Positions 5,888 through 49,657 of a stretch of 49,795 nt of DNA are shown here, piece after piece. Under the pieces are notes generated by a model. That model made no database searches. It was not told the DNA's origin and saw only the letters and a program-made list of their open reading frames with translations. A program made the translations under genes and the position numbers. The DNA comes from Candidatus Alcyoniella australis (lineage in GTDB: Bacteria; Lernaellota; Lernaellaia; JAVCCG01; Alcyoniellaceae): assembly GCA_030765605.1 (NCBI GenBank), contig JAVCCG010000141.1, positions 1-49,795 of the forward strand. The letters are read 5' to 3'. Positions within the stretch are counted from its first letter, which is position 1. Every line of letters begins with the position of its first letter.

Positions 5888-5905
5888 TTCGCAAGGAGCC
5901 GAGAG

Positions 5906-6145: not shown

Positions 6146-6163
6146 ACCGCGGGCGAGCCGACG

Positions 6164-9546: not shown

Positions 9547-9584
9547 GGCATCAAGTCAGCGATGGCTGCGCGGCATGCGGCCGA

Positions 9585-10979: not shown

Positions 10980-11094
10980 GGCCGGGATTATAGCAACGCG
11001 CCTGCGGACCTTGAAAGCGTGTGCACAACTTTCCATGGGTGTAAGTTGCGGATTTGCCTTGGTTGATGTTTGCCAGTATACAAGGCTTTGACCG

Positions 11095-12801: not shown

Positions 12802-12812
12802 GGACGCTACTT

Positions 12813-16121: not shown

Positions 16122-17633
16122 ATGAGCGGGTCGCGGCAAAACACCCGAAGTTATCCGCTTAGATTCTCCGAGCTTATTTTCTTAAGTCTGGTGGCGCTGC
16201 ATCTGATCGCCGAGCTCGAGCATATACTCCGAAGCGGCCCACAGATCGGGTTCGTTGATGGCACGTTGCTCGAGGCGGTTGTCGTTGCCGGTCCGCTGTT
16301 GGTCGCGTTGCTTTGCGATGATCAAGCGCGGATCTTGTTCCTGGGTATTGTCGCGCTGGTTGCGCTGTTGGTCGTTGCTAGAAGCGTGTACGCGGGCCGC
16401 AGAGGGCCAGCCGAATTGCTGCGTTTGATCTGGACGATCGCAGTCCGGATCGTCCTGGCACTGTGGATCGCAGTGGCCGTGGGCTGTTGGACTTTTCTAG
16501 TGTGTCGCCACAACTTCTACGGCGCGGCAGCGTCGCTGGCGGCGCTGACCATATTCGGGCTGCTCAGGCGTCGGGCAGAATTCGTAGCCCGCCGGATGTT
16601 GTTGATCAGCTCGACTCTTGGGCTGCTGTTCTTTATCGGGTTGAATCCAACGCTGTACTACAGCGCCCAACAGATCGAGCAGAGCCCGATATTCAGCGAG
16701 TCGTCCTACGATGCCGAGTATCTGCAGGGAAATTATTTTATCGCCTCGGCACAGCGTCGCGAGGTCGTGATCCTGGAGGGCGAAGTCGAGCGAGCGGTAG
16801 AAAACACCTGGCTTACTCAGCGAATGGTGGTCGATCCTGACGGGGAAACGGTCTTTGCTGTGAACTACTGTAAACGACCGGGCATGTGCATTACAGCCAT
16901 TGGAAACGGCCAGACTCGCCAGATTCCGATCGAGGGCTGCGATATGCCGGTATCTGCACAGTTCGACCGCAAGACGCGGGAATTGGTCGTCGTTTGCGAG
17001 CACAGTTGCAGCGTGCACCTGCTGGACCCCCAGCAGGGAGTCCAACGCCATCACTGGAACGTGGGCTGCCTGCCCGACTCGGTGGCAGTGGACAGCGTCC
17101 GCCGTCGCGCCTATGTCAGTGCCGAGGTGATGACCGTATTTTTAACAATGCTCCAACTCGATGGACAGCGCGACGCGCAACGCCGATACGCCGGACTTGT
17201 CAACTGGGACGTCAAGGTCGACGAGACTACGGGGAGGATTTTTGTAGCCCGCGGCATTCAGGGCGAGGTGGCTGTGTTCGATTCGGAACTGCGGCTGCTC
17301 AAACTGATCCGCGTGGGGTCCGGCCCGCGCGACATGGAGATTGATCAGCAACGTCGGCTGTTGCTCGTGGGCAATTATTTCAGCGGCACGCTGTCGCTGA
17401 TCGACATCGACCGGCTGGAGTTGGTGCTGCACGGCGCCGTGGGTAAGCGTGGAGTGGCTCAAGACAGGTTCGAGCTTCTACTTCCTCTCGATCAACTGCT
17501 ACTGCGAAAATTGCGAGGGGTAAGCGTTACATCGCAGGGTAAGTGGTTGATCGCAGACATTACCGGCGTGTGGGAGATCGACCCCGATCAAGTTCTGCCC
17601 CGCCAATACGATTCGTCAGCTACTGAGATATGA
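16122..17633 (+). CDS. Membrane-anchored beta-propeller (YncE-like) protein, tandem copy 2
   Basis: A 503-residue paralogue of the gene ending at 16088, with the same segment order: an N-terminal multi-pass region (LIFLSLVALHLIAELEHIL, LFLGIVALVALLVVA, IVLALWIAVAVGCWTFLVC, LLISSTLGLLFFIGL) and a C-terminal propeller. Nearly shared strings include VGNYFSGTLSLID and KWLIAD.TGVWEI. Conserved Cys pairs in both copies (CEHSCS and NYCKRPGMC/NFCAMPHRS) suggest periplasmic structural or metal sites. The last 18 bases overlap the convergent alkylsulfatase-like gene. Equal length and high similarity point to a gene duplication in place. Function unknown. Confidence 0.72.
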   Translation: MSGSRQNTRSYPLRFSELIFLSLVALHLIAELEHILRSGPQIGFVDGTLLEAVVVAGPLLVALLCDDQARILFLGIVALVALLVVARSVYAGRRGPAELLRLIWTIAVRIVLALWIAVAVGCWTFLVCRHNFYGAAASLAALTIFGLLRRRAEFVARRMLLISSTLGLLFFIGLNPTLYYSAQQIEQSPIFSESSYDAEYLQGNYFIASAQRREVVILEGEVERAVENTWLTQRMVVDPDGETVFAVNYCKRPGMCITAIGNGQTRQIPIEGCDMPVSAQFDRKTRELVVVCEHSCSVHLLDPQQGVQRHHWNVGCLPDSVAVDSVRRRAYVSAEVMTVFLTMLQLDGQRDAQRRYAGLVNWDVKVDETTGRIFVARGIQGEVAVFDSELRLLKLIRVGSGPRDMEIDQQRRLLLVGNYFSGTLSLIDIDRLELVLHGAVGKRGVAQDRFELLLPLDQLLLRKLRGVSVTSQGKWLIADITGVWEIDPDQVLPRQYDSSATEI

Positions 17634-19337
17634 GCTGAAGGCGACAAGTTCGGACAGCCCGCCCTCGACCTTGACCCGGCCCGTGGCCAGGGCCGTTGCC
17701 GGCGAGAGGTCGCCGATGACGAACGCTTTGAAGTTGGGCTCGGTGGCAATGAACTTCAGGTCGAATTCGTCCGATAGCCCACGACGAAGCTCTCCCACGC
17801 CGCGGCGAATTATAAACGTGTACTGTTCGCCCGTGTCCAAGAACTCAAAGCAGATCGTTTTATATACTTGGGCGGTTTTCTCCGGCCGCAGACGTTCGGG
17901 GAAGGTGCGCAGGATCACCTCGGCCGGCAGATCGCGCACGGTTTGGGCGTCGATTTTCGGAGAACCAGGGGCTTTGAAATCGCCGCGCAGCTCGAGAGCC
18001 GAGCTGAGCAGATAGCAGCGGGCATTGGTGTTGTGCTCCTGCAAGCCAAGCTGCCACAGCGCCTCGGCCTTGGCCTTGCGGGCTGCGCTGTTGTCAGGTT
18101 CCGCAGCTAGTAAGATGTCGGCAAGCTGCGCGGTCCACTGAAAGTCGCCGGCGTCAAGCGAAAGTTCGATTTGCTCGATCAACGCCGCGGATCCGCCGAG
18201 CAGCGGCAACAATCTTTCCGCGCTTTGGCTCGGATGCAGACGTCCCAGGTTGGTCGGATTGCCGTCGAACCAACCCAAGTACCCGTCGTAAATCCCGCGC
18301 ACCGACCAGGAGACTTTGCCGTAGATCTGCGCCAAGTACGGGTCGTTTGCCAAATGCGGCGGCAGCGCGATGTCGCGCGCCATGTCATCGGGGGATCTGC
18401 CGAGGTTCGCCATACGGATCACCGAGTCGTGGACAAAGCTGATGGCGTCGCGGTACACGGTGAGCGTCCGCGCAATCCGCTCGCGTCCGGCCAGCGGCGA
18501 GGTGTGACACGGCACCAGATAGTCCGGCTGGAGTGCACGCATCCTGTCCAGCGAATCGATCCAGCCGCGCACCGGTCGCGGGCTGACGCCGCGGGTCGAA
18601 TACAGATTTGGAAACGCCATATAGATGTTGTCGCCGGGGATCAGGACGCGCTGCTGCGGCAGCCAGACGAAAAGCTGGTCAACGGTCTCGCCCGGCGCCT
18701 CGTGCAGCTCAAAGCGCACGCCGCCGATCTCGAGCTGTTTAATCCCGGTGAACGTATCGGTCGGATAAATAATCGGCGGTACCGGGCCCGAGTCGAGTTT
18801 GATTCTCGGTCCGATACCGTTGTTCTCGACCAGCTCCGGGGAAAGCGCTTCGCCGAACTGTTTGGATCCGCGGTAACGCAGGGTGGCGCCGAGGCTGGCG
18901 AACTGGTCGTTGAGCATTTCCGGCGCACGTAAATGAGCCCAGATCGGCACTCCGGGCTCGTGGAACACGCTGCAACCAAGAACGTGGTCCGGGTGCGTAT
19001 GGGTGTAGATAATCGCCTTGACCGGTCCGGGTTCGATCCTGTCGAATTCCTCCTTGATCCGTTGTGCCGACTCCACGCTCTCGGTGGTGTCGATGATGAC
19101 CTTGCCCTGGTCGACAACGACCATGATGCTGTTGGCTAGGCCGTAGCCGATCGCCACATACACGCCGTCGCAGACCTGCTCCACGCGCTCGTCGAAAAGC
19201 TGCGTATGGTGTGCGCGCGGCGGCTGGTCAAGGGATGTGAGGGTCGCCGGACGCTGATCGGCGTTGCAGCCGCAAAGCGACGCTGCTACGTACAGCGCCG
19301 CTGCTACGATCATCTTCAGACGCATGACACGCTCCAT
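17616..19337 (-). CDS. Alkylsulfatase-type metallo-beta-lactamase-fold lipoprotein
   Basis: A 573-residue protein with a lipobox at LCGC (lipid Cys24). Residues 60-290 are a metallo-beta-lactamase fold with THTHPDH at 112-118, a further metal region PGDNIYMAFPNLYSTRG, and a later PCHTSPLAG. The NLY..RG string is typical of the SdsA1/YjcS alkylsulfatase family. A helical dimerisation-like region (about residues 310-430) and a C-terminal SCP2-like sterol-carrier domain (about 450-573) complete the family layout. SdsA1 enzymes hydrolyse alkyl sulfate esters such as SDS. Here the enzyme seems anchored to a membrane, and some family members have other substrates. It overlaps the convergent propeller gene by 18 bases. 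Fold secure, exact activity not. Confidence 0.82.
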   Translation of the reverse strand: MERVMRLKMIVAAALYVAASLCGCNADQRPATLTSLDQPPRAHHTQLFDERVEQVCDGVYVAIGYGLANSIMVVVDQGKVIIDTTESVESAQRIKEEFDRIEPGPVKAIIYTHTHPDHVLGCSVFHEPGVPIWAHLRAPEMLNDQFASLGATLRYRGSKQFGEALSPELVENNGIGPRIKLDSGPVPPIIYPTDTFTGIKQLEIGGVRFELHEAPGETVDQLFVWLPQQRVLIPGDNIYMAFPNLYSTRGVSPRPVRGWIDSLDRMRALQPDYLVPCHTSPLAGRERIARTLTVYRDAISFVHDSVIRMANLGRSPDDMARDIALPPHLANDPYLAQIYGKVSWSVRGIYDGYLGWFDGNPTNLGRLHPSQSAERLLPLLGGSAALIEQIELSLDAGDFQWTAQLADILLAAEPDNSAARKAKAEALWQLGLQEHNTNARCYLLSSALELRGDFKAPGSPKIDAQTVRDLPAEVILRTFPERLRPEKTAQVYKTICFEFLDTGEQYTFIIRRGVGELRRGLSDEFDLKFIATEPNFKAFVIGDLSPATALATGRVKVEGGLSELVAFSSYLSS

Positions 19338-19381: not shown

Positions 19382-20173
19382 TCAGTCTTTGAACAATGCG
19401 CGATCCAGAACGCCGAAACCGTTGAAGCTGCTGCGGCCGGTGAGCAGCAGCGCCAGCAGGACCGTGAGCGACGTGCCGCTGAAGATCGCGATCATGATCG
19501 CGATCTGATACTTGATTGCGACCATCGGGTCGGCGCCGCCGAGGATCACGCCGGTCATCATTCCGGGCAGGGCGACCAGGCCGATGGTGGCGATGGTGGC
19601 CACAGTCGGCGCCAGTGAGGCCTCGATCGCGTCACGCATGTACGGACCCAGAGCCTCCTTGAGGCTCGCGCCCTGTGCCAGAGTGTTGAGGTAGGCCTTA
19701 TCGCCGCGGCGCACCGCGTCGTAAAAGCTCTTGATGCCGACGATATCGGCCCGCAGGCAGTTGCCCAGGATCATCCCGGCGATCGGGATCGCGTATTGCG
19801 CATCAAGCAGGTTCGGCCGCCGCAGGATCGGACCGAGAAAGAACAGCAATGGCACGGCAGTGCCCACCAGCAGAGAGATGAACAGCGGCAATGCGAAGCG
19901 CCGCAGTCTCAGGCCCGAGCCGCGGGCGATGGAGATATCAGCGACCACGATCATCACCAATACCCACAGCGAGTTGAGCCAAGGATTGTTCAGCCGGAAG
20001 ATCACCTGCAAATACAGGCCGACGAACAGCAGTTGGACCGTCATCCGCACCAGGGCGATCAGCGTCCGTCCGAAAATCGGCACGCGCATAAACAGAATAA
20101 CGCCCAGCGGAATCAGCAGCAGCGAATAACCGGCGATCAGGCTCGAAATTTTGATGTCTATCACGCCGTCCAT
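19382..20173 (-). CDS. fetB: FetB/UPF0014-type ABC transporter permease
   Basis: A 263-residue membrane protein with about seven hydrophobic segments and the conserved UPF0014 motifs: PIAGMILGNCLRAD, then E/A-rich cytoplasmic loop with LAQGASLKEALGPYMRDAIEASLAPT, and VALPGMMTGVILGGADPM..A.KYQIAIM. In E. coli FetAB is linked to iron export and oxidative-stress tolerance. The start chosen (ATG at 20173) overlaps the stop of the ATPase gene by one base (TGATG), the usual translational coupling for a two-component transporter; a longer frame to 20230 runs into the ATPase gene and is rejected. Substrate at family level: possibly iron or another metal. Confidence 0.88.
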   Translation of the reverse strand: MDGVIDIKISSLIAGYSLLLIPLGVILFMRVPIFGRTLIALVRMTVQLLFVGLYLQVIFRLNNPWLNSLWVLVMIVVADISIARGSGLRLRRFALPLFISLLVGTAVPLLFFLGPILRRPNLLDAQYAIPIAGMILGNCLRADIVGIKSFYDAVRRGDKAYLNTLAQGASLKEALGPYMRDAIEASLAPTVATIATIGLVALPGMMTGVILGGADPMVAIKYQIAIMIAIFSGTSLTVLLALLLTGRSSFNGFGVLDRALFKD

Positions 20174-20823
20174 CACTGCATCCTGCGCGTATCGGGCAGC
20201 TCGACGCTGCGGCTGGTGAAAGAGAGCCACTGTTTGTCGTGTGAAACAGAGAGCACGCTCATATGTTTCTGGCCGGACAAAAAATCGATGATCTTTTGTT
20301 TGCTTTGCTCGTCCAGGGCTGAGGATGCCTCGTCCAGCAGCAGGATTCGCCGGTCGAGCACGATTGCGCTGATCAGCGCCACGCGCTGCTTCTCTCCGCC
20401 CGAAAGCAGGGGCAGCGCTTTATCGAGAAGCAAGCGCTCGAGGCCGAAGCGATCGAACAGCTCCGGTACGCGCTCGATGTTGGATTTGAGACTGCGGTTG
20501 GAGCGAAAGGCGAACATCCGTTCGAAGAACTGCCGCACAGTGCCCTGACCAAGATCGGGCTCCTGGGCTACGAAGGCCACAAGTCTGCGAAGTTGCCAAA
20601 CGCTGTGTTCGTCCACGAGCTCGCCGCTGATGCGAATCGAACCCGAGTCAGGCTTGATGAATCCCATGATGCAACGCAGCAAAGTGCTTTTACCGGTCCC
20701 GGAACTGCCGACGAGCGCCACCTTCTCCGAGCCGGCCACGCTCATGCACAGCCGATCGATCAGGGTCCGACCGTCGAAGCTCAGGCTAAGATCATTGATC
20801 TCGATTGCCGGTAGATCACCCAT
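20173..20823 (-). CDS. fetA: FetA-type ABC transporter ATP-binding protein
   Basis: A 216-residue cytoplasmic ATPase with Walker A GSSGTGKST, signature LSGGEKQRV, Walker B ILLLDEASSALD and a switch His in VSHD. Its short length and immediate coupling to the UPF0014 permease identify it as the FetA/YbbL partner. It is transcribed divergently from the TetR-type regulator at 20995, with a shared 171-base promoter region that also carries a large dyad at 20956-20978, so the TetR protein could influence both directions; that link is inferred only from position. Confidence 0.88.
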   Translation of the reverse strand: MGDLPAIEINDLSLSFDGRTLIDRLCMSVAGSEKVALVGSSGTGKSTLLRCIMGFIKPDSGSIRISGELVDEHSVWQLRRLVAFVAQEPDLGQGTVRQFFERMFAFRSNRSLKSNIERVPELFDRFGLERLLLDKALPLLSGGEKQRVALISAIVLDRRILLLDEASSALDEQSKQKIIDFLSGQKHMSVLSVSHDKQWLSFTSRSVELPDTRRMQ

Positions 20824-20978: not shown

Positions 20979-20994
20979 ATTGTCGGAAGCATTT

Positions 20995-21639
20995 ATGACA
21001 GCAGATCGCAAGTCAAGGCGCGGTGATCGCGCGCCGGCACTGTTGCCCGTTGCCAGGCGTCTGTTTTTCGAACGCGGATATCACGGCACGACCATGGAAC
21101 AGGTCGCAACGGGCGCCGGCTTTTCCAAACGCACGGTCTACCTCTATTTTCGCAACAAGGACGAGCTGTTCATCGCTGTTGCCGAAGAAGGTTTATTAAT
21201 CCTGCGCAATCGGCTGGAGCAGATCGATGTCGAGGCGTTGCAGATCGAGCCGTGCATCGAGCAGATTACGCAATGCTACCTATGGTTCGCGCGCGAGCAC
21301 GCGGATTATTTTAAGATCATCTTTCACGAGCCGACCCAGGGCATGATCGCCAATGTCTCCCAGGACCTACGCAAGCGTATTGAGCAGCATGAGCGGGCTT
21401 GCCTGGGTATCGTGGTTAAGGTCGTGGAAAAAGCGGTCAGGCTCGGCGTGGTGTTCGACGTTGACCCCTGGGAGATTGCCGCGATTTTTTGGGGTGCGGT
21501 GACCGGGGTAGTGTTGCTCTCGATGGGCGGAAGCCAGACGATCTTCACCCAACGCACGCGCGAGGAACTCAGCGCCAAGGCGACTTGGATCATCTATCGG
21601 GGGCTGCGCGCGGATGCCGCAAACACTGAACAGGAGTAG
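20995..21639 (+). CDS. TetR/AcrR family transcriptional regulator
   Basis: A 214-residue regulator. Its N-terminal helix-turn-helix is typical: ARRLFFERGYHGTTMEQVA, then GAGFSKRTVYLYFRNKDELF. The C-terminal ligand domain (about residues 75-214) resembles those responding to acyl-CoA or hydrophobic compounds but cannot be assigned to a ligand. GGAAG six bases before the ATG supports this start; an in-frame TTG at 20980 is less likely. It is the first gene of a chain that continues three bases later with two acyl-CoA dehydrogenases and runs to 32177, so it probably controls the whole acyl-CoA operon through the dyad at 20956-20978. Confidence 0.88.
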   Translation: MTADRKSRRGDRAPALLPVARRLFFERGYHGTTMEQVATGAGFSKRTVYLYFRNKDELFIAVAEEGLLILRNRLEQIDVEALQIEPCIEQITQCYLWFAREHADYFKIIFHEPTQGMIANVSQDLRKRIEQHERACLGIVVKVVEKAVRLGVVFDVDPWEIAAIFWGAVTGVVLLSMGGSQTIFTQRTREELSAKATWIIYRGLRADAANTEQE

Positions 21640-21642
21640 ACG

Positions 21643-22872
21643 GTGATCTATCAGGATGTGTTCGCTCTTCCTCTTCCGTGGCTTGGCGAGCTGGATTGCT
21701 CTTTGGCCGATACGGTTGAGCGTTGGGCACAGCAGGAATTAATCCCCAAACGTCATGAGCTGGGAGAGGATTATCAGCTGCTGCTGCGACCGGCCCTTGA
21801 AAAGCTGTTCGTCGAGATCGGATTGCAAAAACTGATCTGGCCCGAGGATCAGGGCGGAGCCGGACTGGACGGCGCACAGTCCGCGCTCGCGGTCTGTGCA
21901 GTGCTTGAGCAAATCGGACGGGCCGACGTGGGAATCGGACTACTGTTGTCCAGCACGCTCGCCGTGCAATCGAGCTGCGGCATCGCAGAGCAACACGACG
22001 CCGAATTGTTTAAACGCTTTAGCCCGTTTTTCTGCAATGACCAGGCGAGCATCGCCGCGCTGATCTTGCCCGATTACAGCATTGACGATCGTGCCTCAGG
22101 CGATTTTCACGGGCTGCCCTATCAGCTGCGAACGCGTTGCGAAAATGACGAGTGGATCCTCGATGGCGAAGAGGTCCGAGCGCTGTGCTCCGGCTTTGAC
22201 GCCGCATTGTTCGGCGTTGTCTGTCTGCTGGACGGCAAACCCGGCATGCTGCTGGTACCCGCTGATTCAGATGGTTTGACCCGTGGCGATCAGTTGCTCA
22301 CCACCGGTCTTGCCGCCAGCCGCGATTGCGAGCTGTGCTTTGACAACGTACGCGTGCCCAAGGGCAATCTGGTATTCGCCGACGAGGAGCAATTGGTTTT
22401 GTTGCTTGCCCGGCAAATGCTGGGATCTGCCGCGACAAGCGCCGGGGCTGGACTGGCCTGCTACGAGATCCTCAAGGAATGGGGCGAGACGCGGGTGATC
22501 AAGGGGCGCGGCTGCGTGTTCAAGGACAACCCGTTGACCGCGGCGCTGATGGGACGCATCGGCGGCAAAATCTGCACAGCGCGTCTGCAGGCCTACTCAT
22601 TGGCCAAGCTGATCGCCGATCCGATGTCGTTCGGACTCAACGCCGCCGAGCACTTGTTGGCCAACGCCACTGCCGTAGCCTCATCAATCTGTAGCTCGAC
22701 GATCGAGGCGTTGGATCACACCATGGAACTGATGGCCTCGGCCGGGTACGCCAGCGAATGGCAGCTCGAGCGCTATTGGCGCGACATTAAGACGCTTCAA
22801 TCACGCCTCGGCCCGCTGCCCCAGCGCGAGGCGAGCATGGCTCGGGGCTTCTTCGGCTCCGCGGGGGTTTAG
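21643..22872 (+). CDS. Acyl-CoA dehydrogenase-like flavoprotein, subunit/paralogue 1
   Basis: A 409-residue protein (GTG start, AGGAG upstream) with the acyl-CoA dehydrogenase order: an N-terminal helical domain (LADTVERWAQQELIPKR, WPEDQGGAGLDG), a middle beta domain (DCELCFDNVRVPKGNL) and a C-terminal helical domain. The FAD/CoA-base region that normally reads RD.K...IYEGT reads RDIKTLQSRLGPL: the catalytic Glu position appears to be Leu389. The classic middle-domain FAD motif is also weak. It is followed one base later by a second, better-preserved paralogue, so the two may form a hetero-oligomer such as is known for mycobacterial ChsE1-ChsE2. It may be catalytically inactive or use another base. 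Confidence 0.82.
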   Translation: MIYQDVFALPLPWLGELDCSLADTVERWAQQELIPKRHELGEDYQLLLRPALEKLFVEIGLQKLIWPEDQGGAGLDGAQSALAVCAVLEQIGRADVGIGLLLSSTLAVQSSCGIAEQHDAELFKRFSPFFCNDQASIAALILPDYSIDDRASGDFHGLPYQLRTRCENDEWILDGEEVRALCSGFDAALFGVVCLLDGKPGMLLVPADSDGLTRGDQLLTTGLAASRDCELCFDNVRVPKGNLVFADEEQLVLLLARQMLGSAATSAGAGLACYEILKEWGETRVIKGRGCVFKDNPLTAALMGRIGGKICTARLQAYSLAKLIADPMSFGLNAAEHLLANATAVASSICSSTIEALDHTMELMASAGYASEWQLERYWRDIKTLQSRLGPLPQREASMARGFFGSAGV

Positions 22873-22873
22873 C

Positions 22874-24142
22874 ATGCGCAGCATCGACGATTTCACGCGA
22901 CCGCTTGAATATTTGGCACTGCTCGACGATCCACTGGGCAAGATCGTGCGCCACTGGGCCGATACCGAGGTGATCCCGAACCGTCGCCGCTATGACGAGG
23001 ATTGGGAACGCCACGAGTTGATCGAGCCGGCCTTTGACAAGCTGATGGCCGGGCTGGGACTACAGCGGATGCTGCTGCCCCAGGACCTCGGCGGTTTCGG
23101 AATGGGCAGCTCGAGCTATTTGGGCACCGGCGCCTGTCGGATTTTCGAGGAGGTGGCGCGAGCCGACTCGGGCATGGCCGTGGCCTTCGGCGTTGTGTTT
23201 TGGCCGCTGCTGATGATCTGTTGCGAGCCGCACGTCAATCGACGGTTGTGCGAGGAGTTCGCACCGCTGTTTCTCGATCCGCACAAGGCGCGCTTTGCAG
23301 CCAACGCGATGACCGAGCCCCAGGGCGGAGCTGACATCGAGAACATGGATTTGCTCAAGGGCAGCACAATTCGCACTACCGCCAAGCTCGATGGCGACCA
23401 GTGGGTGATTAACGGGCACAAGCTGTGGCCGACCAACTCCGGCGGAATCGCCGATCTGTTCGGCGTGGTTTGCACTACCGATCCGGGCTCCCAGCGTCCC
23501 GAGGACTTCGCCTTTATTTTCGTGCCCGCAAACACTCCGGGCGTGACCCAAAGCAAGCCCTACCAAAAGGCGGGTATGGCCGCGGACAAGAACAGCGACA
23601 TCTGGTTCGACAATGTGCGCGTGCCCGACTATTTTCGCGCCTGCGGGCCGGGTGATGATTTCCGTCGCTTCAAAGAGGTCGTCAGTTTCGGCAACCTGGG
23701 AAGCCTGTCCTTTGTCAGCGGCGTGCTGCTCAACACCTTCGAGATTGTCTCTGATTTTTGTTCCAAGCGTAGGTTCCGCAACAAGCCGCTGCTGGAAAAC
23801 GACGATGTCGCCGGATCGCTGGCAGACCTGGCGAGCTCAATCGAGGTAATACGCATTTGCGCATACCAGTACGCGCGAATGATCGACAGGCCGGACCTCT
23901 ATGGCGAGCGCGGCAGCGATAAGATCGTGGCCAAGGGCAGGGCGCTCAAATATTTTGCCTGCGACCGCGCCATGTCCGAGATCGGCCGCGCCATCGAGCT
24001 GATGGGCCAGCACGGCGCAGATCGCGAGCTGGATCTGGAGAAACATTGGCGCGATTTGAAGATCGTTCAGCTCTGGATGGGCGGCAAACAACTTTGCCAG
24101 GTCGAGACAGCGCGCTGGTTTTACGGATGCAAGACATTATGA
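22874..24142 (+). CDS. Acyl-CoA dehydrogenase-like flavoprotein, subunit/paralogue 2
   Basis: A 422-residue paralogue of the preceding gene. The middle domain is better kept: NAMTEPQGGADIENM, WVINGHKLWPTNSG and DIWFDNVRVPDY, which match FAD- and substrate-binding stretches. At the expected catalytic segment it reads RDLKIVQLWMGGKQ, so Glu in YEG is replaced by Met402. A Glu in FKEVVSFGNLGS lies near where isovaleryl-CoA dehydrogenase and some relatives carry their base, and could serve; this is a by-eye alignment. The stop overlaps the next start (ATGA). With the reductase-like genes downstream, it may act on an acyl-CoA made or consumed by that complex. Confidence 0.84.
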   Translation: MRSIDDFTRPLEYLALLDDPLGKIVRHWADTEVIPNRRRYDEDWERHELIEPAFDKLMAGLGLQRMLLPQDLGGFGMGSSSYLGTGACRIFEEVARADSGMAVAFGVVFWPLLMICCEPHVNRRLCEEFAPLFLDPHKARFAANAMTEPQGGADIENMDLLKGSTIRTTAKLDGDQWVINGHKLWPTNSGGIADLFGVVCTTDPGSQRPEDFAFIFVPANTPGVTQSKPYQKAGMAADKNSDIWFDNVRVPDYFRACGPGDDFRRFKEVVSFGNLGSLSFVSGVLLNTFEIVSDFCSKRRFRNKPLLENDDVAGSLADLASSIEVIRICAYQYARMIDRPDLYGERGSDKIVAKGRALKYFACDRAMSEIGRAIELMGQHGADRELDLEKHWRDLKIVQLWMGGKQLCQVETARWFYGCKTL

Positions 24143-24843
24143 GCGAGCAACGGATTGAACGGCGCGGTGTGTTCGACGGCAGCGCCCGCGTGTTGCGCGA
24201 GCTGCTGGCTTCGCCTAGATGGCGGCAGACGATCCGCATCCTGCTGAACGAGCTCGACCCGCAAAACGCTCATCGACTGGTGGCGGTACTGTTCGAGGTC
24301 GACCCGGAGCTGGCTCTTTCAGCCGCCGCGTCCGCTCCCAAGCTTTGCAACGCAATGATCGACGGCGGAGCCGAGCTGCTGGGGCGCATGGCCGATTTTC
24401 AACCCGATTTGCTGCGGGAGTTTTTCAACCAATTAGTCGATCAAATTGACCTGCGGGGATTGGGGCGGCTGACCGGACTGTATTTAATTCTGGCAGCGCG
24501 AATCGCTGCACCGCGCGAAATTAACAATAAAGATGAACAAGGCGTGCGGACCGATGGGTTCGCTGAAGGCCTGAGCGAGGTGCTTGTTCAGCGCGAAGCA
24601 AAGCTGGACGTGCTGTTGCCGCAACTTGCCGACACGCTGATCAATGCCGCGGATCGGGCTGCCCGCACGCTGGCCGCGGATGTGAAGCGCGAGGATTCGA
24701 CCACGGTAAAAACAGTTGAGACGCTTACCAGCGGTATCAGACGCGTTGCCGCTGACAACCCGGATTTCATCGAGCGGGTGCTACGTCCGCTGGCACTGGC
24801 AATGAGCGACGCCGTGGGAACGGAGGGCTCGGACAATGGCTGA
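24139..24843 (+). CDS. Helical protein of unknown function, member 1 of a three-gene family
   Basis: A 234-residue, predicted soluble and all-helical protein of no family I recognise. It opens with SARVLRELLASPRWRQT, followed by a module of about 75 residues (DPELALSAAASAPKLCNAMI..ELL..F.PDLLREFFNQLVDQIDL..LGRL) that recurs in the next two genes. No signal peptide, no cysteine motif. The ATG overlaps the stop of the acyl-CoA dehydrogenase gene and the gene ends eight bases inside the next one, so production is probably coupled. It may be a scaffold or assembly factor for the flanking enzyme; that rests on context only. Confidence 0.7.
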   Translation: MSEQRIERRGVFDGSARVLRELLASPRWRQTIRILLNELDPQNAHRLVAVLFEVDPELALSAAASAPKLCNAMIDGGAELLGRMADFQPDLLREFFNQLVDQIDLRGLGRLTGLYLILAARIAAPREINNKDEQGVRTDGFAEGLSEVLVQREAKLDVLLPQLADTLINAADRAARTLAADVKREDSTTVKTVETLTSGIRRVAADNPDFIERVLRPLALAMSDAVGTEGSDNG

Positions 24844-25402
24844 GCTGCAATCGACGTCGGCCCGCGTGCTCCGCGAGCTGCTGGCCACTCCAGCGTTTCG
24901 CGAGATCGTGCTGCTCAACGTGCGTGAGATGCAGCCCGAAGAGGCGCGAGAGCTGGTGCGCACCGCACTGTGGACTGATCCGGCTTTCTCGCTGAGCATG
25001 GCGGCTGCCGCGCCCCAGGCGGTCAATTGTCTGATAGAGGCGTTGGTGGAGCTGGCCGTACAGTTGAACAGTTTTCCGCCGCAGATGATGAATGAGTTCG
25101 GCGCAGGGTTGGCGCAACAGGTTCGAACCGAACGCTTGACCGACCTGGCAGGCGAGCTGCGCACGTTGATCCAGCGCACGCTGCAGAACGATCCGCAGCT
25201 TGGGAAACAACTGACAAGCAATGCGATCAAGGCGGTAAACGGCCTGGTGCGCGCGGCGAATCAGATGCTCGATGATCGCCGACGTTCCCGCGAGCTGTTC
25301 GCCGATCTGGACGTCGGGCAGCTGCTGCGGCTGGCATGGCGCCTTGGCTGGTCGCTGGTGCGCGAACTTGTATCACGAGCGCTTGGTGGACGAGGCAGAT
25401 AG
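24836..25402 (+). CDS. Helical protein of unknown function, member 2 of a three-gene family
   Basis: A 188-residue helical protein, clearly related to the gene just before it: SARVLRELLATPAFREI at the N-terminus, then DPAFSLSMAAAAPQAVNCLI, ELAVQLNSFPPQMMNEFGAGL and a helix pair LRTLIQRTLQ..LGKQL. The C-terminal third (residues 150-188) is basic and amphipathic (LLRLAWRLGWSLVRELVSRAL), possibly a membrane-surface helix. It starts inside the previous gene (8-base overlap). No catalytic motif. Function unknown, tied by operon position to the acyl-CoA system. Confidence 0.7.
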   Translation: MAELQSTSARVLRELLATPAFREIVLLNVREMQPEEARELVRTALWTDPAFSLSMAAAAPQAVNCLIEALVELAVQLNSFPPQMMNEFGAGLAQQVRTERLTDLAGELRTLIQRTLQNDPQLGKQLTSNAIKAVNGLVRAANQMLDDRRRSRELFADLDVGQLLRLAWRLGWSLVRELVSRALGGRGR

Positions 25403-25436
25403 TGCGCGGCGCACGACACGGCTTTTGGGGGAGATA

Positions 25437-26615
25437 ATGGAAGAACAAGTTACCCGCAAGATGACCGACGAGCTTCCGGCGCTGATTAAAAGTCAGGCAA
25501 AGGCTTGCGACGAGTTGAGGCCGGCGGTTGGCGAGACGGTTGCGGCGCTCGATTTTGGCAAGCTGCGCATCAGCGTAATCGGGCTCTCGGACTCGGCCAC
25601 CTTGCTCGGCGAGGAGTTCATTGATCACGCCTTGGCCGACCCGGTCTCGTTCGCCAACCTGTTCAGCATGATCGTGCCGCTGGTAAACAATGAACTGCGG
25701 CTGTTGGCGCACTTACTCGAACAAATCGACCTGCCCGACGAGATTCTCGCCAGTTCGGTATTCAACATGCTCGGGGATCTTGATACCGAGCAGATCGCCC
25801 GAGCGCTCAATGCTTTGGCCGTGCGCCTTAACGAGATCCATCGCGGCAGCATGATTTTGGGCCGCGATGAACCCCGGCTGCGTAAGGTTTTGACCGAGTT
25901 CGGCGAGTCGCTGATGAACAAATTCGATCATGAACAGCTCGCGGCCGCATCGCTGGCACTGGCCGAGGACCTGGAAGTTGCGCTGAAGGTATCCAACGCG
26001 CTGCTCGCCTCGGACCCCAAATTATTGCAAATCAGCGGTAATGCGGCACTGGCCTTTGGCAGCGCGACGCTTTCGGGGATGGCCGGCATGTTGCGGGCCA
26101 TCGAGGGCATGCCGGAAGACGAGTTGACCAGCTTCTTGGCCGGGATCGGCAATGAACAGCAGGTCGAAAGCATGGCCGAGGCGCTCAACGCTGCCTTGGC
26201 GCTGGTCAATAGATTTGCCGCGCTGAATAAAGACGACAACGTAACCGCGGGGCTGGTCGAGCGCATCGATCGACAACAACTCGAGTTGGCCGCGTGCAAC
26301 CTGACGCAAAATCAGGCGTTGCAAAACGCCTTGAATCCCGAGCAGGTCGGAAAATGGCTCAACGCACGACTGACGAGTTTCAACAGCCGGGCAAAGCAGG
26401 GGGATGATCGCCCGCCGGGATATTTTAGGCAGGTATTTGATCAGCTCGATTCGCAACAGCTCGAGCAGGCGTTGAACAAGGTGCTGCGCGGCGCGACCGA
26501 CGCGCTGCTCTCGAGTCCGAAACGCGCCGCTGCCCTGATCCGTCCGCTGCTGGCCGCCGGTTGGAGAATCGTCACCATGCCGCTGAGGCGTCTGGTGCGG
26601 AGGGTCTGGAGATGA
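25437..26615 (+). CDS. Helical protein of unknown function, member 3 (long) of a three-gene family
   Basis: A 392-residue helical protein starting at an ATG preceded by GGGGGAG. It carries the family module in its middle (DPKLLQISGNAALAFGSATL, then AIEGMPEDELTSFLAGIG) and additional similar helical units on both sides, so it looks like a multi-unit version of the two shorter neighbours. The C-terminus ends in a very basic helix (MPLRRLVRRVWR). Longer starts overlapping the previous gene lack a ribosome site. Its stop overlaps the ATG of the next gene. No known function; scaffold, chaperone or membrane-surface tether are possibilities only. Confidence 0.68.
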   Translation: MEEQVTRKMTDELPALIKSQAKACDELRPAVGETVAALDFGKLRISVIGLSDSATLLGEEFIDHALADPVSFANLFSMIVPLVNNELRLLAHLLEQIDLPDEILASSVFNMLGDLDTEQIARALNALAVRLNEIHRGSMILGRDEPRLRKVLTEFGESLMNKFDHEQLAAASLALAEDLEVALKVSNALLASDPKLLQISGNAALAFGSATLSGMAGMLRAIEGMPEDELTSFLAGIGNEQQVESMAEALNAALALVNRFAALNKDDNVTAGLVERIDRQQLELAACNLTQNQALQNALNPEQVGKWLNARLTSFNSRAKQGDDRPPGYFRQVFDQLDSQQLEQALNKVLRGATDALLSSPKRAAALIRPLLAAGWRIVTMPLRRLVRRVWR

Positions 26616-27736
26616 TGATGCAACAGTTGATGGAACAGGCGGGCATGCTGCGCAACGATTACCTCGCGGCCTGGCAGGAGGACGGCGGTAAGGTCGTGGG
26701 CTACGCTTGCGTGGCCACGCCGACCGAGATAATCGAGGCCGCCGGATTGCTGCCCTATCGCATTCGCGCCTTGGGCAACAACCGCACCGAGTTGGCCGAT
26801 GCGCACCTCTCGCGTTTCAATTGCAGCTTCTGCCGCTCGTGCCTGCAACTCGGGCTCGAGGGCAGTCTCGACTTTCTCGACGGGCTGATCGAGACCAACG
26901 GATGCGACCACATCCGCGGGATGTTCGAGAACTGGCAATACGCCAAGCCCAGCGAGTTTTTCCACTACGTTAAAGTCCCGCATCTGGTTAACCAGGACAG
27001 CCTGGAATACTTCAGCGAAGAGCTGCGGCTATTTGGCAAGGCGTTGGGGGATCACTTCGGGGCCGATATTACCGACGAGAAACTATGGCAGGCGATCGAG
27101 AACGAGGATCGTCTGCGCGGGTTGCAGCGAGAGATCTATACCATGCGTGAGGGATCGCAGCCGTTGTTCAGCGGCAGCGAATCTTTGTCGCTTTGCCTGG
27201 TGGCGAGCTCCACGCCAACGGAGAAGACCATCGAATTGCTGCGTTCGGCGATCGACGAGCGCAAGGAAAACGGGATCAAGGAGTATCGAGCGCGGCTGAT
27301 GTTCGGAGGCTCGGCAACCGACGAGATCGAGCTGTTGCAGATGATCGAAAAACTCGGCGGCCTGATCGTCAGCGATTTGCTGTGCTACGGCTCACGCAGC
27401 TTCTGGGATCGCAACCTCGATCGCGGGTCAGACCCCTACGACACCTTGGCAAAATTATATCTGCAAAACCTCTCGTGCCCGCGGATGTTCGACGAGTTTT
27501 CCTATCGCCGAAAACTGCTGCTCGACGCGGTGAGTCGATCGGCAGCGGACGGGGTGATCCTGGTCCACAATAAATTCTGCGACGTGCACGGCATCGACAA
27601 TGTCCAGCTAAGACTGGCGTTGGAGAAAGAGGGGGTTCCGGTTTTGACCCTCGAAAAGGAGTACGGCGCAGCGGCTGATCTGGGTCGAATGCGCACACGC
27701 GTGCAGGCTTTCCTCGAGCGGATCGGAGCACGCTGA
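26612..27736 (+). CDS. 2-hydroxyacyl-CoA dehydratase / benzoyl-CoA reductase family subunit (BcrC/HgdB-like)
   Basis: A 374-residue cytoplasmic Fe-S subunit. Family signs run in order: GYACVATPTEIIEAAGLLPYR, then NCSFCRSCLQLGLEG, DHIRGMFENWQY, MFGGSATDEIELLQMIEKLG and, near the end, VHNKFCDVHG with TLEKEYG...RTRVQAFLE. Cysteines at ACVA, CSFCRSC and KFC are the likely 4Fe-4S ligands. Members catalyse radical-type eliminations or ATP-dependent ring reduction on acyl-CoA, powered by an activator ATPase. GGAGG at 26599-26603 and the ATGA overlap support the start. Together with the next gene it would form the substrate-binding heterodimer. Whether it is a dehydratase or a reductase cannot be decided from sequence. 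Confidence 0.85.
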   Translation: MMMQQLMEQAGMLRNDYLAAWQEDGGKVVGYACVATPTEIIEAAGLLPYRIRALGNNRTELADAHLSRFNCSFCRSCLQLGLEGSLDFLDGLIETNGCDHIRGMFENWQYAKPSEFFHYVKVPHLVNQDSLEYFSEELRLFGKALGDHFGADITDEKLWQAIENEDRLRGLQREIYTMREGSQPLFSGSESLSLCLVASSTPTEKTIELLRSAIDERKENGIKEYRARLMFGGSATDEIELLQMIEKLGGLIVSDLLCYGSRSFWDRNLDRGSDPYDTLAKLYLQNLSCPRMFDEFSYRRKLLLDAVSRSAADGVILVHNKFCDVHGIDNVQLRLALEKEGVPVLTLEKEYGAAADLGRMRTRVQAFLERIGAR

Positions 27737-29142
27737 TGTACTCCGAGCAGGTGGGATTGTTCGATCGGGTGGCCTCGATCCTCGATCTGTGCAAGCGCAT
27801 GCCCGACACGATGAGCGACGAGGAAGTGGAGGGGCTGCTCAAGTTTCTGCCCACGGATTCGCAGAATTCGATCCGCGCGATGCTCGTGCCACGCTTTCGC
27901 GACGTCAGCGTCAAGTTTCTCAAGCTGGTGGCCAAATGGGTGCACACCGCGCGCAAGGCTCCGTTGGAGGGCAAGAAGGTAATTATCGTGCCGTTCAATT
28001 TCCCGCCGGAGCTGATTCACGCCTTTGACAATGCCTGCCCGATCACCAGTGAGATCCTCTCGACGCTGGGCGTGGTGGCCCTGGAGGGGCAGGGCGAGCG
28101 CTATTGGGACATGGCGATGGGGCTTGGATTGCCCGACCACTCTTGCTCGTCGAGCACCATCGAGCTGGGATCGATGCTCGGCTCGAGCGACTTTCGGCCG
28201 CAGGCCATCGTCTCGGCCGCACCCGGCGGGTGCGACGTCAACGCCAAGATCCACGAGTTCGTCTCGAACTATCTGGACATCCCGCAGTTTTTCCTGGCCA
28301 AGATCCCGGACGACTCCCAGCGTGGCCACGCTCAATACAGCGTGGAGGCGCGAAAGCTGATCAAGAGTCTGGAGCAGTTTGTGGGCGAGGAGCTGACCGA
28401 GGACAAGCTGCGCAAAGTGATGGAGCGCGCCAACCGCTGCACTGAGCTGCACTACGAGCTGTGGGATCTGCAACGCGCGCGGCCATGCCCGGTCCCCAAC
28501 CTGTTCTCGCTCTACCTCTACGGCGTGCGCTTCTCGATGTGGGGCACCCAGGACGGGATCGAGATGCTTGAGGCGATGGTCGATCTCGCTAAACAGCGGC
28601 TCAAGCAAGGGGCCTACCCGGCGCCGCAAGAAAAAGCCCGCACCCTGTGGTGCTACACCAGCTACTATTTCGACTTTGCCAACCTGTTCAACTGGATGGA
28701 GGAGAGCGGTTACACGCACCTCGGCGACGGACTGGACCTGTATTTTCCGCAGCCGGTGGACACATCGAGCATGGACAGCATGATCGAAGGCTTTGCCGAG
28801 GCTGCGCGCAACATGCCGATGACGCGCCAGGTGGGCGGCCAGTCGATGTCCGGCCAATGGACCGAAGACTGCATTACCGCGGCGCAACAGCTCGATGCAG
28901 ACTGTGTGATCTACTGCGGACATCACTCATGCAAGCAGACCTGGTCGGTGCTCTCGATATTGCGTAGCGAGATCGAGCGGCGCACGGGACTGCCGATGTT
29001 GGTACTGCAGGGCGACTCGTGGATCAGGCGCATGACTCCGATCAGCGTGATCCAACACGAGATCGACGAGTTCGTACAAAACGTCGTGGCGCGCAAGGAA
29101 CAGGGCAAGCGTCGGTCGCGAAAACACAAATCGATAAACTGA
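27736..29142 (+). CDS. 2-hydroxyacyl-CoA dehydratase / benzoyl-CoA reductase family subunit (BcrB-like)
   Basis: A 468-residue partner of the preceding subunit, starting within its stop codon (TGATG). It matches the larger subunit type: FNFPPELIHAFDNACPITSE, then CSSSTIELGSMLG, SAAPGGCDVNAKIHEF, and a C-terminal VIYCGHHSCKQTWS followed by GLPMLVLQGDSWIRR and a final helical stretch. Cys residues in NACP, CSSS, GGCD and HHSC are candidates for the second 4Fe-4S cluster. Class I benzoyl-CoA reductase has exactly such a pair plus two ATPases, and the two ATPase genes follow. The very basic tail (KRRSRKHKSIN) is unusual. Substrate unknown. Confidence 0.84.
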   Translation: MYSEQVGLFDRVASILDLCKRMPDTMSDEEVEGLLKFLPTDSQNSIRAMLVPRFRDVSVKFLKLVAKWVHTARKAPLEGKKVIIVPFNFPPELIHAFDNACPITSEILSTLGVVALEGQGERYWDMAMGLGLPDHSCSSSTIELGSMLGSSDFRPQAIVSAAPGGCDVNAKIHEFVSNYLDIPQFFLAKIPDDSQRGHAQYSVEARKLIKSLEQFVGEELTEDKLRKVMERANRCTELHYELWDLQRARPCPVPNLFSLYLYGVRFSMWGTQDGIEMLEAMVDLAKQRLKQGAYPAPQEKARTLWCYTSYYFDFANLFNWMEESGYTHLGDGLDLYFPQPVDTSSMDSMIEGFAEAARNMPMTRQVGGQSMSGQWTEDCITAAQQLDADCVIYCGHHSCKQTWSVLSILRSEIERRTGLPMLVLQGDSWIRRMTPISVIQHEIDEFVQNVVARKEQGKRRSRKHKSIN

Positions 29143-29151
29143 GGGAGCCCG

Positions 29152-29943
29152 ATGCTGTTCGCCGGAATCGACGTCGGATCGCTCACCGCAGAAGCGGTGG
29201 TGGTCAACTCAACAGGAATCGTGGCCGGACAGAGCATGTCGGTGCTGCCCAATCCGGTGGACTCGGCGCGCGAAGTGCTGGGCAGACTGCTGCGGCAGCA
29301 GGGCATTGCACTAAAGCAGATCGAATACACGATCAGCACGGGCTACGGCCGTGAGCAGGTGCAGCTCGAGGGCATGGCCCAGAGCAACGTCAGCGAGATC
29401 TCGTGTCACGGCATGGGAGCCTACGCGCAGTTGCCGCGGGTGCGCACGGTGATCGATATCGGCGGCCAGGATGCCAAGGTAATCAAACTCGACGAGGCGG
29501 GCGAGTTGGCCGACTTTGTGATGAACGACAAGTGCGCCGCGGGCACCGGGCATTTCCTCGAGATCATGAGCCGGGCATTGGGCGTCACGCTGGAGCAGCT
29601 CGGGCCGCTGTCGTTGGGTTCCAGGACGCCGATCGAGATGAGCAATCGTTGCAGCATTTACGTTGAGACCGAGGTGATCCATTACTTGCAACGCGGTGCG
29701 TCAAAGGTCGATTTGGCCGCTGGGATCAACCGTTCAATGGCCGAACGCGTCGTTGCTCTGGTGCGGCGCGTGAAGCCCAAGCGCGAGGTGATGCTCACCG
29801 GCGGTGTGGCCAAGAACGTTGCTGTGCGTGCGGAACTAGAGCGCATGTTGCAGGTCAAGATGGTTCGTCCGCAAATCGACCCGCAGCTGATCGGCGCCTA
29901 CGGTGCGGCTGTGCTTGCATCGCGCATCGGAGATGCACAGTGA
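29152..29943 (+). CDS. BcrA/BcrD/HgdC-type acyl-CoA dehydratase/reductase activator ATPase 1
   Basis: A 263-residue ATPase of the ASKHA fold, short activator type. Motifs: GIDVGSLTAEAVV (phosphate 1), VIDIGGQDAKVIK (phosphate 2), NDKCAAGTGHFLEIMSRALG with the first cluster Cys, SNRCSIYVETEV with the second, and LTGGVAKN (adenosine). In HgdC two such cysteines from a homodimer hold one bridging 4Fe-4S cluster; ATP hydrolysis drives electrons to very low potential into the partner. The spacing from the previous gene is nine bases with GAGGGAG before the ATG. Function within the family is secure. Confidence 0.9.
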   Translation: MLFAGIDVGSLTAEAVVVNSTGIVAGQSMSVLPNPVDSAREVLGRLLRQQGIALKQIEYTISTGYGREQVQLEGMAQSNVSEISCHGMGAYAQLPRVRTVIDIGGQDAKVIKLDEAGELADFVMNDKCAAGTGHFLEIMSRALGVTLEQLGPLSLGSRTPIEMSNRCSIYVETEVIHYLQRGASKVDLAAGINRSMAERVVALVRRVKPKREVMLTGGVAKNVAVRAELERMLQVKMVRPQIDPQLIGAYGAAVLASRIGDAQ

Positions 29944-30707
29944 TCACAGTGGGTGTGGATGTGGGCAGTCTGCTGACCAAGATGGTCGTGCTCGATGGCG
30001 ACGATTTGGTCGCGAGTTCGATTAACGACACCACGGGAAACATCGTCGACGAGCTTCCGGTCTGGATCGAAGATCTTTTGTCTAAAGCAAAGCTCGAGCG
30101 TTCGCAAATTAAACGGCTGGCCGCAACCGGCAACGGCGCCGATCTGGTCAAGGGCGCGGATTTTAGCGAGGACGAGGTCGCCTGTGTGGCTGCCGCAGCC
30201 TACTTTTCCATTGCACAAATTGAAATGGCGATTCACATCGGCGGCCAGAGCATTACAGCGCTGAGCATGGACGAAAACGGCGAGGTTAAAAGCTTCATGC
30301 GCAACGATAAATGCGCCTCGGGCTCCGGACGATTTATAGAAAACATGGCGTCCAAACTCAATGTCTCGCTGACCGATATTGAAGATTTGGTGGCGCAGTC
30401 GGAAAAACAGGTTTTGATCAGCAATCAATGCGGGGTGTTCGCGGAGAGCGAGGTGATCAGCCACGTCAACGACGGAGAACGGGTGCCCGATATTTTCGCC
30501 GGGATCTGCGCTGCGGTTGCCAACATTGTGGTTTCACAAGGACGCCGGTTCGCCGCTGCCGAACATTTCACACTTACCGGCGGCGTGGCCCGCATAACGC
30601 CGATTGTGAAGATGATCTGCGATAAGCTCGGCGGCGAATATCACGAACTGCCCTACGATCCGCGCCTGGCCGCGGCGATCGGGGCGGCCGTGCTTGCAGG
30701 ATCGTGA
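29940..30707 (+). CDS. BcrA/BcrD/HgdC-type activator ATPase 2
   Basis: A 255-residue paralogue of the preceding ATPase (GTG start overlapping its stop, GTGA). It retains GVDVGSLLTKMVVLDGD, IGGQSITALSMDENG (Ser for the usual Asp), NDKCASGSGRFIENMA and SNQCGVFAESEV with both cluster cysteines, and LTGGVARI. Two different activator ATPases side by side is the pattern of class I benzoyl-CoA reductase (BcrA plus BcrD) rather than of dehydratases, which use a single homodimeric activator. It probably forms a heterodimer with the preceding protein that injects electrons into the two Fe-S subunits upstream. Confidence 0.88.
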   Translation: MITVGVDVGSLLTKMVVLDGDDLVASSINDTTGNIVDELPVWIEDLLSKAKLERSQIKRLAATGNGADLVKGADFSEDEVACVAAAAYFSIAQIEMAIHIGGQSITALSMDENGEVKSFMRNDKCASGSGRFIENMASKLNVSLTDIEDLVAQSEKQVLISNQCGVFAESEVISHVNDGERVPDIFAGICAAVANIVVSQGRRFAAAEHFTLTGGVARITPIVKMICDKLGGEYHELPYDPRLAAAIGAAVLAGS

Positions 30708-30711
30708 ACCG

Positions 30712-31428
30712 ATGGGTCTGTTCGATGAACAGCTGACAACGCTACGCAGCCTGGTCCGCGATATCGAAGCGGCATCCCAGATTCAAACTTTTAATCAAGA
30801 GCAGTGTCCGACGTGGCCCCGCGGCTCGAGTCTGGTGCTCGAGGAAGACACAGCACTGGAGCTGGGTAATCCCAGCCTTGGATCGCTGATGCTGCTGCTG
30901 TGGTCTGAAGACCCTGCGGCCGTGGACAACGGTCGCGTGACCCTGATCGGTCCGGACGTCGATCAGTTGGAACGCTCGAGTGCATTTTGTCAGGTATTGA
31001 TAGTGGCCGGACGATTTGACGAGCCGTACGAGCGTTATCGCGATCTGCGTGACGCTGTCTACAATACGCGGCTGGATGGGTTGATGGTGCGCAGCGTGGC
31101 CAGCCGACAGACCGCGTGGTGCAGGATCAGTCACGACGCTTTGAAGCGCGGAATGACGCTGCCGATTATCGGCGCTGAACTGTTGCGCTCGTTAAGCGAG
31201 TTGGAATTTGTCGATGCCGCGGAAACGCTGTTGATAACCGCGGGCAAGGAGACAATCGAGAAACTCAGGCCATTGGCCGACATGCTGGGAAACATCGTCG
31301 GTGCGTTGATTAAAATGCACGAGGAGCCGCTGCTTCAATGCGATAGCTGCGACTATCGCGAGATCTGCGAAGGGGTCGCGGAGCTCAAGCGGATCAGACG
31401 AGAGCTGAGGACGGGAGCGGATCGATGA
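30712..31428 (+). CDS. Acetyl-CoA synthase (CdhC/AcsB)-like domain protein, short form
   Basis: A 238-residue protein resembling one domain of the acetyl-CoA synthase beta subunit. By memory alignment: EEDTALELGNPSLGSL, GRVTLIGPDVDQL, VLIVAGRFDEPYERYRDLRD and TAWCRISHDALKRGMTLPIIG correspond to ACS segments around ELGGP, GPDID, ERRIH and RISK....G....IG. It ends with LQCDSCDYREICEG, a Cx2Cx5C set placed where ACS has the first cysteines of its A-cluster (Cx2Cx8C). The fourth cluster Cys and the CGC that holds the second nickel are absent, and ACS is about three times longer. Possibly a small Fe-S or nickel protein serving the reductase-like complex. A TTG at 30694 is an alternative start. The CooC-like gene overlaps its stop. 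Confidence 0.62.
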   Translation: MGLFDEQLTTLRSLVRDIEAASQIQTFNQEQCPTWPRGSSLVLEEDTALELGNPSLGSLMLLLWSEDPAAVDNGRVTLIGPDVDQLERSSAFCQVLIVAGRFDEPYERYRDLRDAVYNTRLDGLMVRSVASRQTAWCRISHDALKRGMTLPIIGAELLRSLSELEFVDAAETLLITAGKETIEKLRPLADMLGNIVGALIKMHEEPLLQCDSCDYREICEGVAELKRIRRELRTGADR

Positions 31429-32177
31429 GCAAGATGATTATTGCGGTCTGCGGCAAGGGCGGAGTGGGTAAAACCACAGTCTCCGCGATGATCTCCCGCA
31501 GCCTGTTTCTTTCCGGCAAACCGCGTACGTTGCTGGTCGACGCTGATCCGTCCAGCGGCCTTGCCATTGCCTTGGGAATGGAGCCGGAGCGCACGGTGGA
31601 GTATCTGCGTAACAACACCATCGGCGAGGTCAGGCAGGGCCGGACCGACAAGCGCGATCTTGCGCAATCGCTGGACTACTTGCTGCTCGATGCATTGGTC
31701 GAACGCGGCAACCTGGCGCTGCTCTCTATCGGACGACCGGAACAGCGCGGTTGCTACTGTTCGGTAAACTCACTTTTACGTGAGGCGATCGAACTGCTGG
31801 CCGGGCAGTTCGATCTGGTGCTGATCGACGCTGAGGCCGGAGTGGAGCAGGTCAACCGCGAGGTGCTGCGCGGAGTCGATAAATTGCTGCTGGTGGGCGA
31901 CACGTCGCAGAAATCGTTGCGCGTAACCATGACCATCGATGAGGTGGCCCGCAAGTACGCAGCTGACATTGAATCGTTGCTGCTAATCAACCGTGTGCGC
32001 GAGACAGATGAATATTCGCAATCAGTCGCATCGACCAATCTCAAGTTTGCGCTGGGGATTCCCGAGGACGGAACCGTGCGCGAGTACGACGCCGAGGCGC
32101 GCTCGTTTTTGCAGATGCCCGATTGCCCGGCCACAGCAGCGGTGGATGAGCTGCTGGCCTTAATGCGCTTGACCTGA
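31425..32177 (+). CDS. CooC-type nickel-insertion ATPase (MinD/SIMIBI class)
   Basis: A 250-residue P-loop ATPase. The deviant Walker A is CGKGGVGKTT (residues 9-18), DADPSSGLAIALG follows the P-loop strand, and LVLIDAEAGVEQVNREVL corresponds to the CooC switch II region. A Cys-X-Cys motif, GRPEQRGCYCSVNSLLRE (Cys110 and Cys112), matches the pair that binds nickel at the dimer interface in CooC1. CooC proteins insert nickel into CO dehydrogenase or acetyl-CoA synthase. No CODH gene is in the window, so the client is probably the ACS-like protein whose gene it overlaps by four bases, or the Fe-S subunits upstream. Family call strong, client inferred. Confidence 0.88.
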   Translation: MSKMIIAVCGKGGVGKTTVSAMISRSLFLSGKPRTLLVDADPSSGLAIALGMEPERTVEYLRNNTIGEVRQGRTDKRDLAQSLDYLLLDALVERGNLALLSIGRPEQRGCYCSVNSLLREAIELLAGQFDLVLIDAEAGVEQVNREVLRGVDKLLLVGDTSQKSLRVTMTIDEVARKYAADIESLLLINRVRETDEYSQSVASTNLKFALGIPEDGTVREYDAEARSFLQMPDCPATAAVDELLALMRLT

Positions 32178-45080: not shown

Positions 45081-45096
45081 GTAAGGAGAGCTGTGC

Positions 45097-45735: not shown

Positions 45736-45750
45736 AAAAGTAGAACGAAG

Positions 45751-49596: not shown

Positions 49597-49657
49597 TGCG
49601 CTTAATGGGGAAGCTGCTTCGAGACATGGTAAAGCACGCGGGACGAATCCTCCGGGG

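Follow-up and report, generated by a model that had tools for sequence, protein, structure and literature searches.

A conserved operon of Candidatus Alcyoniella australis probably encodes a new clade of ATP-driven CoA-thioester enzymes, together with an acetyl-CoA-synthase-like protein and CooC

The likely product of a co-directional 12-gene unit in Candidatus Alcyoniella australis is an ATP-driven enzyme for CoA thioesters that represents a new clade within the superfamily of class I benzoyl-CoA reductases and 2-hydroxyacyl-CoA dehydratases. The operon lies at positions 20980-32177 of the window, the 49,795-nt stretch of contig JAVCCG010000141.1 (GCA_030765605.1) analysed here, to which all coordinates refer unless another locus is named. 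It combines two HGD-family subunits (HGD_C and HGD_B) and two ATPase activators (act1 and act2) with a free-standing acetyl-CoA synthase (ACS) domain (ACSl) and a CooC-type ATPase, preceded by genes for a TetR regulator, two acyl-CoA dehydrogenases (ACAD1 and ACAD2) and three helical proteins (hel1-hel3).

Operon layout and gene content

20980-21639, plus strand: TetR-family regulator, the leading gene (PF00440, 5.1e-18), with a 3-base gap to ACAD1
21643-22872, plus strand: ACAD1, degenerate acyl-CoA dehydrogenase (PF02771, 1.8e-09)
22874-24142, plus strand: ACAD2, acyl-CoA dehydrogenase (profile search, alignment)
24139-24843, plus strand: hel1, helical-type protein (homologues in other loci)
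24836-25402, plus strand: hel2, a helical-type relative of hel1 and hel3 (homologues in other loci)
25386-26615, plus strand: hel3, all-helical protein of 409 aa (AlphaFold2 model)
26612-27736, plus strand: HGD_C, BzdN/DCCP-type subunit (PF06050, E=2.9e-85)
27736-29142, plus strand: HGD_B, active-site-type subunit (PF06050, E=1e-52)
29152-29943, plus strand: act1, BcrA/BcrD/BzdQ-type ATPase activator (TIGR00241, 226.7 bits)
29940-30707, plus strand: act2, second activator (TIGR00241, 188.5 bits)
30712-31428, plus strand: ACSl, free-standing ACS middle domain (PF03598, E=2.1e-11)
31339-31368, plus strand: CxxCx5C tail of ACSl (C210, C213, C219; conservation in homologues)
31425-32177, plus strand: CooC-type ATPase with deviant Walker A GKGGVGKT (PDB match 3kje, 4.1e-12)
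31752-31760, plus strand: CxC metal-binding motif of CooC (C110-Y-C112; conservation in homologues)

All eleven co-directional, mostly overlapping genes named in the first-pass annotation are present, and the TetR gene immediately upstream also belongs to the unit. Genes overlap at most junctions, with ATGA-type overlaps at 24139/24142, 26612/26615, 29940/29943 and 31425/31428, and the last base of HGD_C is the first base of the HGD_B start (27736). The start of hel3 is uncertain (GTG at 25386 or ATG at 25437/25461). Profile searches and the 3kje match bore out the earlier identities of the two acyl-CoA dehydrogenases, HGD_C and HGD_B, the two activases and CooC, whereas the gene described as ACS-like corresponds to the ACS middle domain only.

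Conservation of the gene set

The operon is a real, conserved unit. A search with HGD_B across 84,980 species genomes returned 45 HGD_B loci from Actinomycetota, Deltaproteobacteria/Myxococcota, Syntrophomonadaceae and Archaeoglobi, which were scanned, along with locus L018, using profiles built from the window's proteins. Without counting TetR, the complete set ACAD1-ACAD2-hel-HGD_C-HGD_B-act1-act2-ACSl-CooC is found in 12 further loci spanning several phyla and two domains. Their hosts belong to Actinomycetota, Syntrophomonadaceae, Archaeoglobi (four loci) and, for L018, another family in the window's class; the grouping proposed in the first-pass annotation is thus conserved in other genomes. 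In L018 an orthologue of the TetR gene is found in synteny, and L027, L029 and L030 also have TetR genes upstream. In addition, genes for an acyl-CoA ligase, an MFE-2 hydratase and a 3-hydroxyacyl-CoA dehydrogenase occur near some operon copies.

Metagenome-assembled genomes supply most of the evidence in this analysis, and genes are hidden by contig ends. Smaller arrangements were also found. ACAD genes are missing from six loci (L025, L043, L046, L054, L056 and L059) whose upstream sequence reaches 7.8 kb or more and which encode HGD_C, HGD_B, an activase, ACSl and CooC; in L059 no act1 call was obtained. Five loci (L031, L035, L042, L044 and L053) carry ACAD-hel-HGD_C-HGD_B with no same-strand ACSl adjoining HGD_B. 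HGD_B stands alone in L050, L060 and a further locus of the Ca. A. australis genome (L017), where shared partners would therefore be needed. The solitary gene in L017 (G000:C90, 6393-7886) encodes a paralogue 58% identical to HGD_B, and its 15.6 kb contig lacks partner genes. In L116, a molybdopterin oxidoreductase is encoded (4836-7742) within a divergent HGD_B-HGD_C-act-ACSl-CooC cluster. A divergent set is also present in a closed genome, G413.

HGD subunits and activases

HGD_C has BzdN as its best PDB match (8s02, 3.3e-48) and contains eight cysteines with complete or near-complete conservation. Six of these (C33, C71, C98, C258, C289 and C323), kept in 36/36 sequences and present in 7/8 divergent homologues, represent all six positions common to BzdN and DCCP. 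BzdN is reported to hold an [8Fe-9S] cluster ligated by six cysteines, and BzdO an aqua-[4Fe-4S] cluster ligated by three (PMC11971306). In HGD_B, C137, C166 and C399 are invariant (57/57), the first two pairing with BzdO Cys95 and Cys128, and Glu106, likewise kept in 57/57, aligns with HadB Glu55. The latter is presumably the counterpart of BzdO Glu65. HGD_C would accordingly carry a double-cubane [8Fe-9S] cluster and HGD_B a three-cysteine [4Fe-4S] cluster. Both activases exceed the TIGR00241 cut-off of 125.4 bits, with the scores listed above, and they are 33% identical to each other; each retains two invariant cysteines (act1 C128 and C167, 33/33; act2 C125 and C164), and the best benzoyl-CoA-reductase equivalog for act1 is BzdQ. 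The HGD_C cysteines, the cluster cysteines and glutamate of HGD_B and the two distinct activases therefore match the subunit arrangement of class I benzoyl-CoA reductases. The phylogenetic tree places HGD_C in a clade of its own, apart from BzdN, DCCP, HadC and MbdN (support 99/96 with the divergent set).

Alternatively, the operon could encode a 2-hydroxyacyl-CoA dehydratase, in which the activases would inject a single recycled electron and HGD_B would remove water from a 2-hydroxyacyl-CoA. The operon proteins resemble HadBC in family, in the Glu55 equivalent and in the presence of an ATPase activator, HGD_B is alignable with HadB across the N-terminal half, and the genes near some operon copies are of fatty-acid type. 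However, HadC lacks two of the six double-cubane cysteines, at HGD_C positions 33 and 258, HadB Ser37 is replaced by Phe87 in 56/57 HGD_B sequences, and the operon encodes two different activases, all of which make a dehydratase unlikely.

ACSl and CooC

ACSl matches only the middle domain of ACS (residues 336-479 of about 730), and in alignment to ACS neither the A-cluster domain, which holds the nickel ligands, nor the N-terminal domain is present. Its AlphaFold2 model (mean pLDDT 93.5) matches ACS structures in Foldseek with E-values down to 1e-10, a probability of 1.00 and TMq of 0.45-0.61, and ACSl is thus predicted to adopt the ACS middle-domain fold, a domain reported to interact with CoA (PMC12289521). 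ACSl shares this fold and the retained W-x-R motif with AcsB/CdhC, but differs from them in the two missing domains and in a new CxxCx5C tail, which is invariant in 27/27 main-family sequences and 9/9 divergent homologues, the latter having an additional cysteine upstream of it.

ACSl occurs in 31 of the 33 genomes with HGD_B, as one close copy per host except in two genomes with divergent extras (G086 and G063) and two with none. Several host genomes have more than one HGD_B locus yet a single close ACSl, which suggests that the ACSl-CooC pair serves all HGD sets in trans, through maturation or electron delivery. A wider survey of 386 genomes (E<=1e-18) identified ACSl in 10, with eleven genes in total, nine of which adjoin HGD genes. 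The first-pass annotation had regarded independent occurrence of these genes as evidence against a functional unit; among the genomes examined, ACSl and CooC were found in none without HGD proteins.

The operon CooC, whose best solved-structure match is CooC itself, retains the deviant Walker A and the CxC site in 26/26 family members, and the CxC site is also kept in 5/5 divergent homologues. Zinc or nickel is reportedly bound at this site, between the monomers (PMC6006190). The operon copy differs from known CooC in being tied to HGD genes and ACSl rather than to a carbon monoxide dehydrogenase (CODH). The earlier statement that no CODH or full ACS is present holds within the window, but contig C88 of the same genome carries a full-length ACS, AcsV and a second CooC, 35% identical to that of the operon, with the CODH family represented only by weak Prismane matches.

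These features raise a second alternative, in which CooC would insert nickel or another non-iron metal through ACSl, yielding a heterometal iron-sulfur cluster and an ATP-driven acyl-CoA reduction unlike described chemistry. The conserved CxC site, the retention of a CooC distinct from that of the ACS cluster, the invariant cysteine tail of ACSl and two histidines of HGD_B next to C399 (His396, invariant; His397, 56/57) are consistent with such an enzyme. However, the A-cluster domain is missing from ACSl, and iron-only clusters already account for the HGD cysteines. Nickel in the HGD enzyme is possible, the CxC motif of CooC being an indirect pointer to it, and the full heterometal scheme appears decidedly unlikely.

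Comparison with described systems

An ordinary Bzd-type class I benzoyl-CoA reductase, used for benzoate degradation, would fit the matches of HGD_C to BzdN and of act1 to BzdQ. BzdNOPQ likewise combines two HGD subunits with two activases, and the operon shares the double-cubane cysteines of BzdN as well as the three cluster cysteines and catalytic-type glutamate of the active-site subunit. However, HGD_C falls in a separate clade, and the equivalog scores lie far below the cut-offs for BzdN (161.2 vs 453.8), BzdO (20.4 vs 448.6) and BzdQ (188.3 vs 380.2). Moreover, BzdO His131 is replaced by Asn169 in 57/57 HGD_B sequences and the Ser position by Phe, no ring-degradation genes lie within the operon, and ACSl, CooC, the ACAD pair and the helical proteins are additions; we therefore give this reading very little credence. 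The double-cubane cluster protein DCCP, together with its reductase, shares the six cluster cysteines of HGD_C and an ATPase activator. However, DCCP is a homodimer, whereas in the operon HGD_C is paired with a distinct active-site-type subunit to give a heterodimer, and the NF040772 score is 180.7 against a cut-off of 350 bits. That ACSl and CooC serve the Wood-Ljungdahl pathway only and stand here by chance would fit the full-length ACS-type matches (in frames of at least 522 residues) in 24/33 host genomes, but this reading was rejected as highly improbable, since their adjacency to HGD genes recurs in two domains, the genome has a separate CooC beside its ACS, and several hosts (e.g. G083, G086 and G076) have no full ACS match.

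The first-pass annotation could not match the operon to a described system, and we likewise found none with this gene set in the open-access literature. PMC returned no relevant articles pairing CooC with HGD or activase, and dehydratase or benzoyl terms were absent from a paper on CODH genomic context.

Acyl-CoA dehydrogenases and helical proteins

Neither ACAD has the glutamate expected at the medium/short-chain catalytic position, which is Leu/Val in ACAD1 (24/24) and Met/Leu in ACAD2 (28/28). ACAD2 retains the FAD-region motif WPTN, the equivalent of which appears to have been lost from ACAD1, and the invariant Asp98 of ACAD2 is a lead for an alternative base. The best NCBIfam match of ACAD2 is cyclohexane-1-carbonyl-CoA dehydrogenase, far under the cut-off. 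No Pfam family was recognised for hel1-hel3; the AlphaFold2 model of hel3 is all helix (mean pLDDT 78.8) and has no PDB match at E<=0.001.

Genomic surroundings

On the minus strand, paired genes for an ABC ATPase and a UPF0014 membrane protein (19382-20823) lie immediately upstream of the operon, and an alkyl-sulfatase-like metallo-beta-lactamase protein is encoded on the same strand at 17616-19337. The window also encodes three B12-binding radical SAM proteins (8155-14435) and, after a DsrE-like gene, a NarI-like and HdrD-like (4Fe-4S, CCG) pair (6164-8145). A glycan-type gene cluster starts at about 38 kb and continues through 44000-49795, where GC content falls to about 47%.

Proposed mechanism and significance

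Class I benzoyl-CoA reductases catalyze reductions that are among the lowest-potential ones known in biology. From the gene content, synteny, conserved residues and predicted ACSl fold, we infer cluster types, an electron path, a type of substrate and roles for ACSl and CooC. Act1 and act2 would form a heterodimeric activator in which ATP hydrolysis drives low-potential electrons into HGD_C; the double-cubane cluster would store them there before their transfer to the [4Fe-4S] cluster of HGD_B. An acyl-CoA bound at HGD_B would then undergo radical reduction or, alternatively, reductive dehydration, with Glu106 helping to deliver hydrogen. ACSl and CooC, the latter an ATP- and metal-dependent dimer, would act as a maturation or electron-delivery pair shared by every HGD set in the cell. 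ACAD1/ACAD2, which probably have one flavin and lack the classical base, may together with TetR and the helical proteins link the enzyme to one specific acyl-CoA, perhaps an alicyclic or branched one. The earlier suggestion of an ATP-dependent, possibly nickel-containing reductase or dehydratase is thus upheld in its class I-like architecture and ATP-driven activases, but nickel and the choice between reductase and dehydratase are not established.

Several observations weigh against this interpretation. BzdNO can be produced in E. coli (PMC11971306), which leaves the need for ACSl and CooC unexplained. ACAD and helical genes are absent from some operon copies, and four divergent ACSl loci have no neighbouring CooC, some of them on short contigs. 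In L117 and L119, ACSl-CooC adjoins ferredoxin and aldehyde ferredoxin oxidoreductase genes rather than HGD genes, although the genomes with this arrangement, G030 and G210, carry 16 and 11 HGD matches. In addition, the deep branches of the HGD_C tree are long, including those of its known rows, and the putative cluster types follow from cysteine conservation.

Collectively, these analyses reveal a conserved, undescribed clade in Archaeoglobi and several bacterial phyla that comes with its own CooC and a stand-alone ACS domain, suggesting that anaerobic acyl-CoA metabolism includes a step not yet known. The operon makes it testable whether some double-cubane enzymes depend on maturation factors of their own or on an additional metal.
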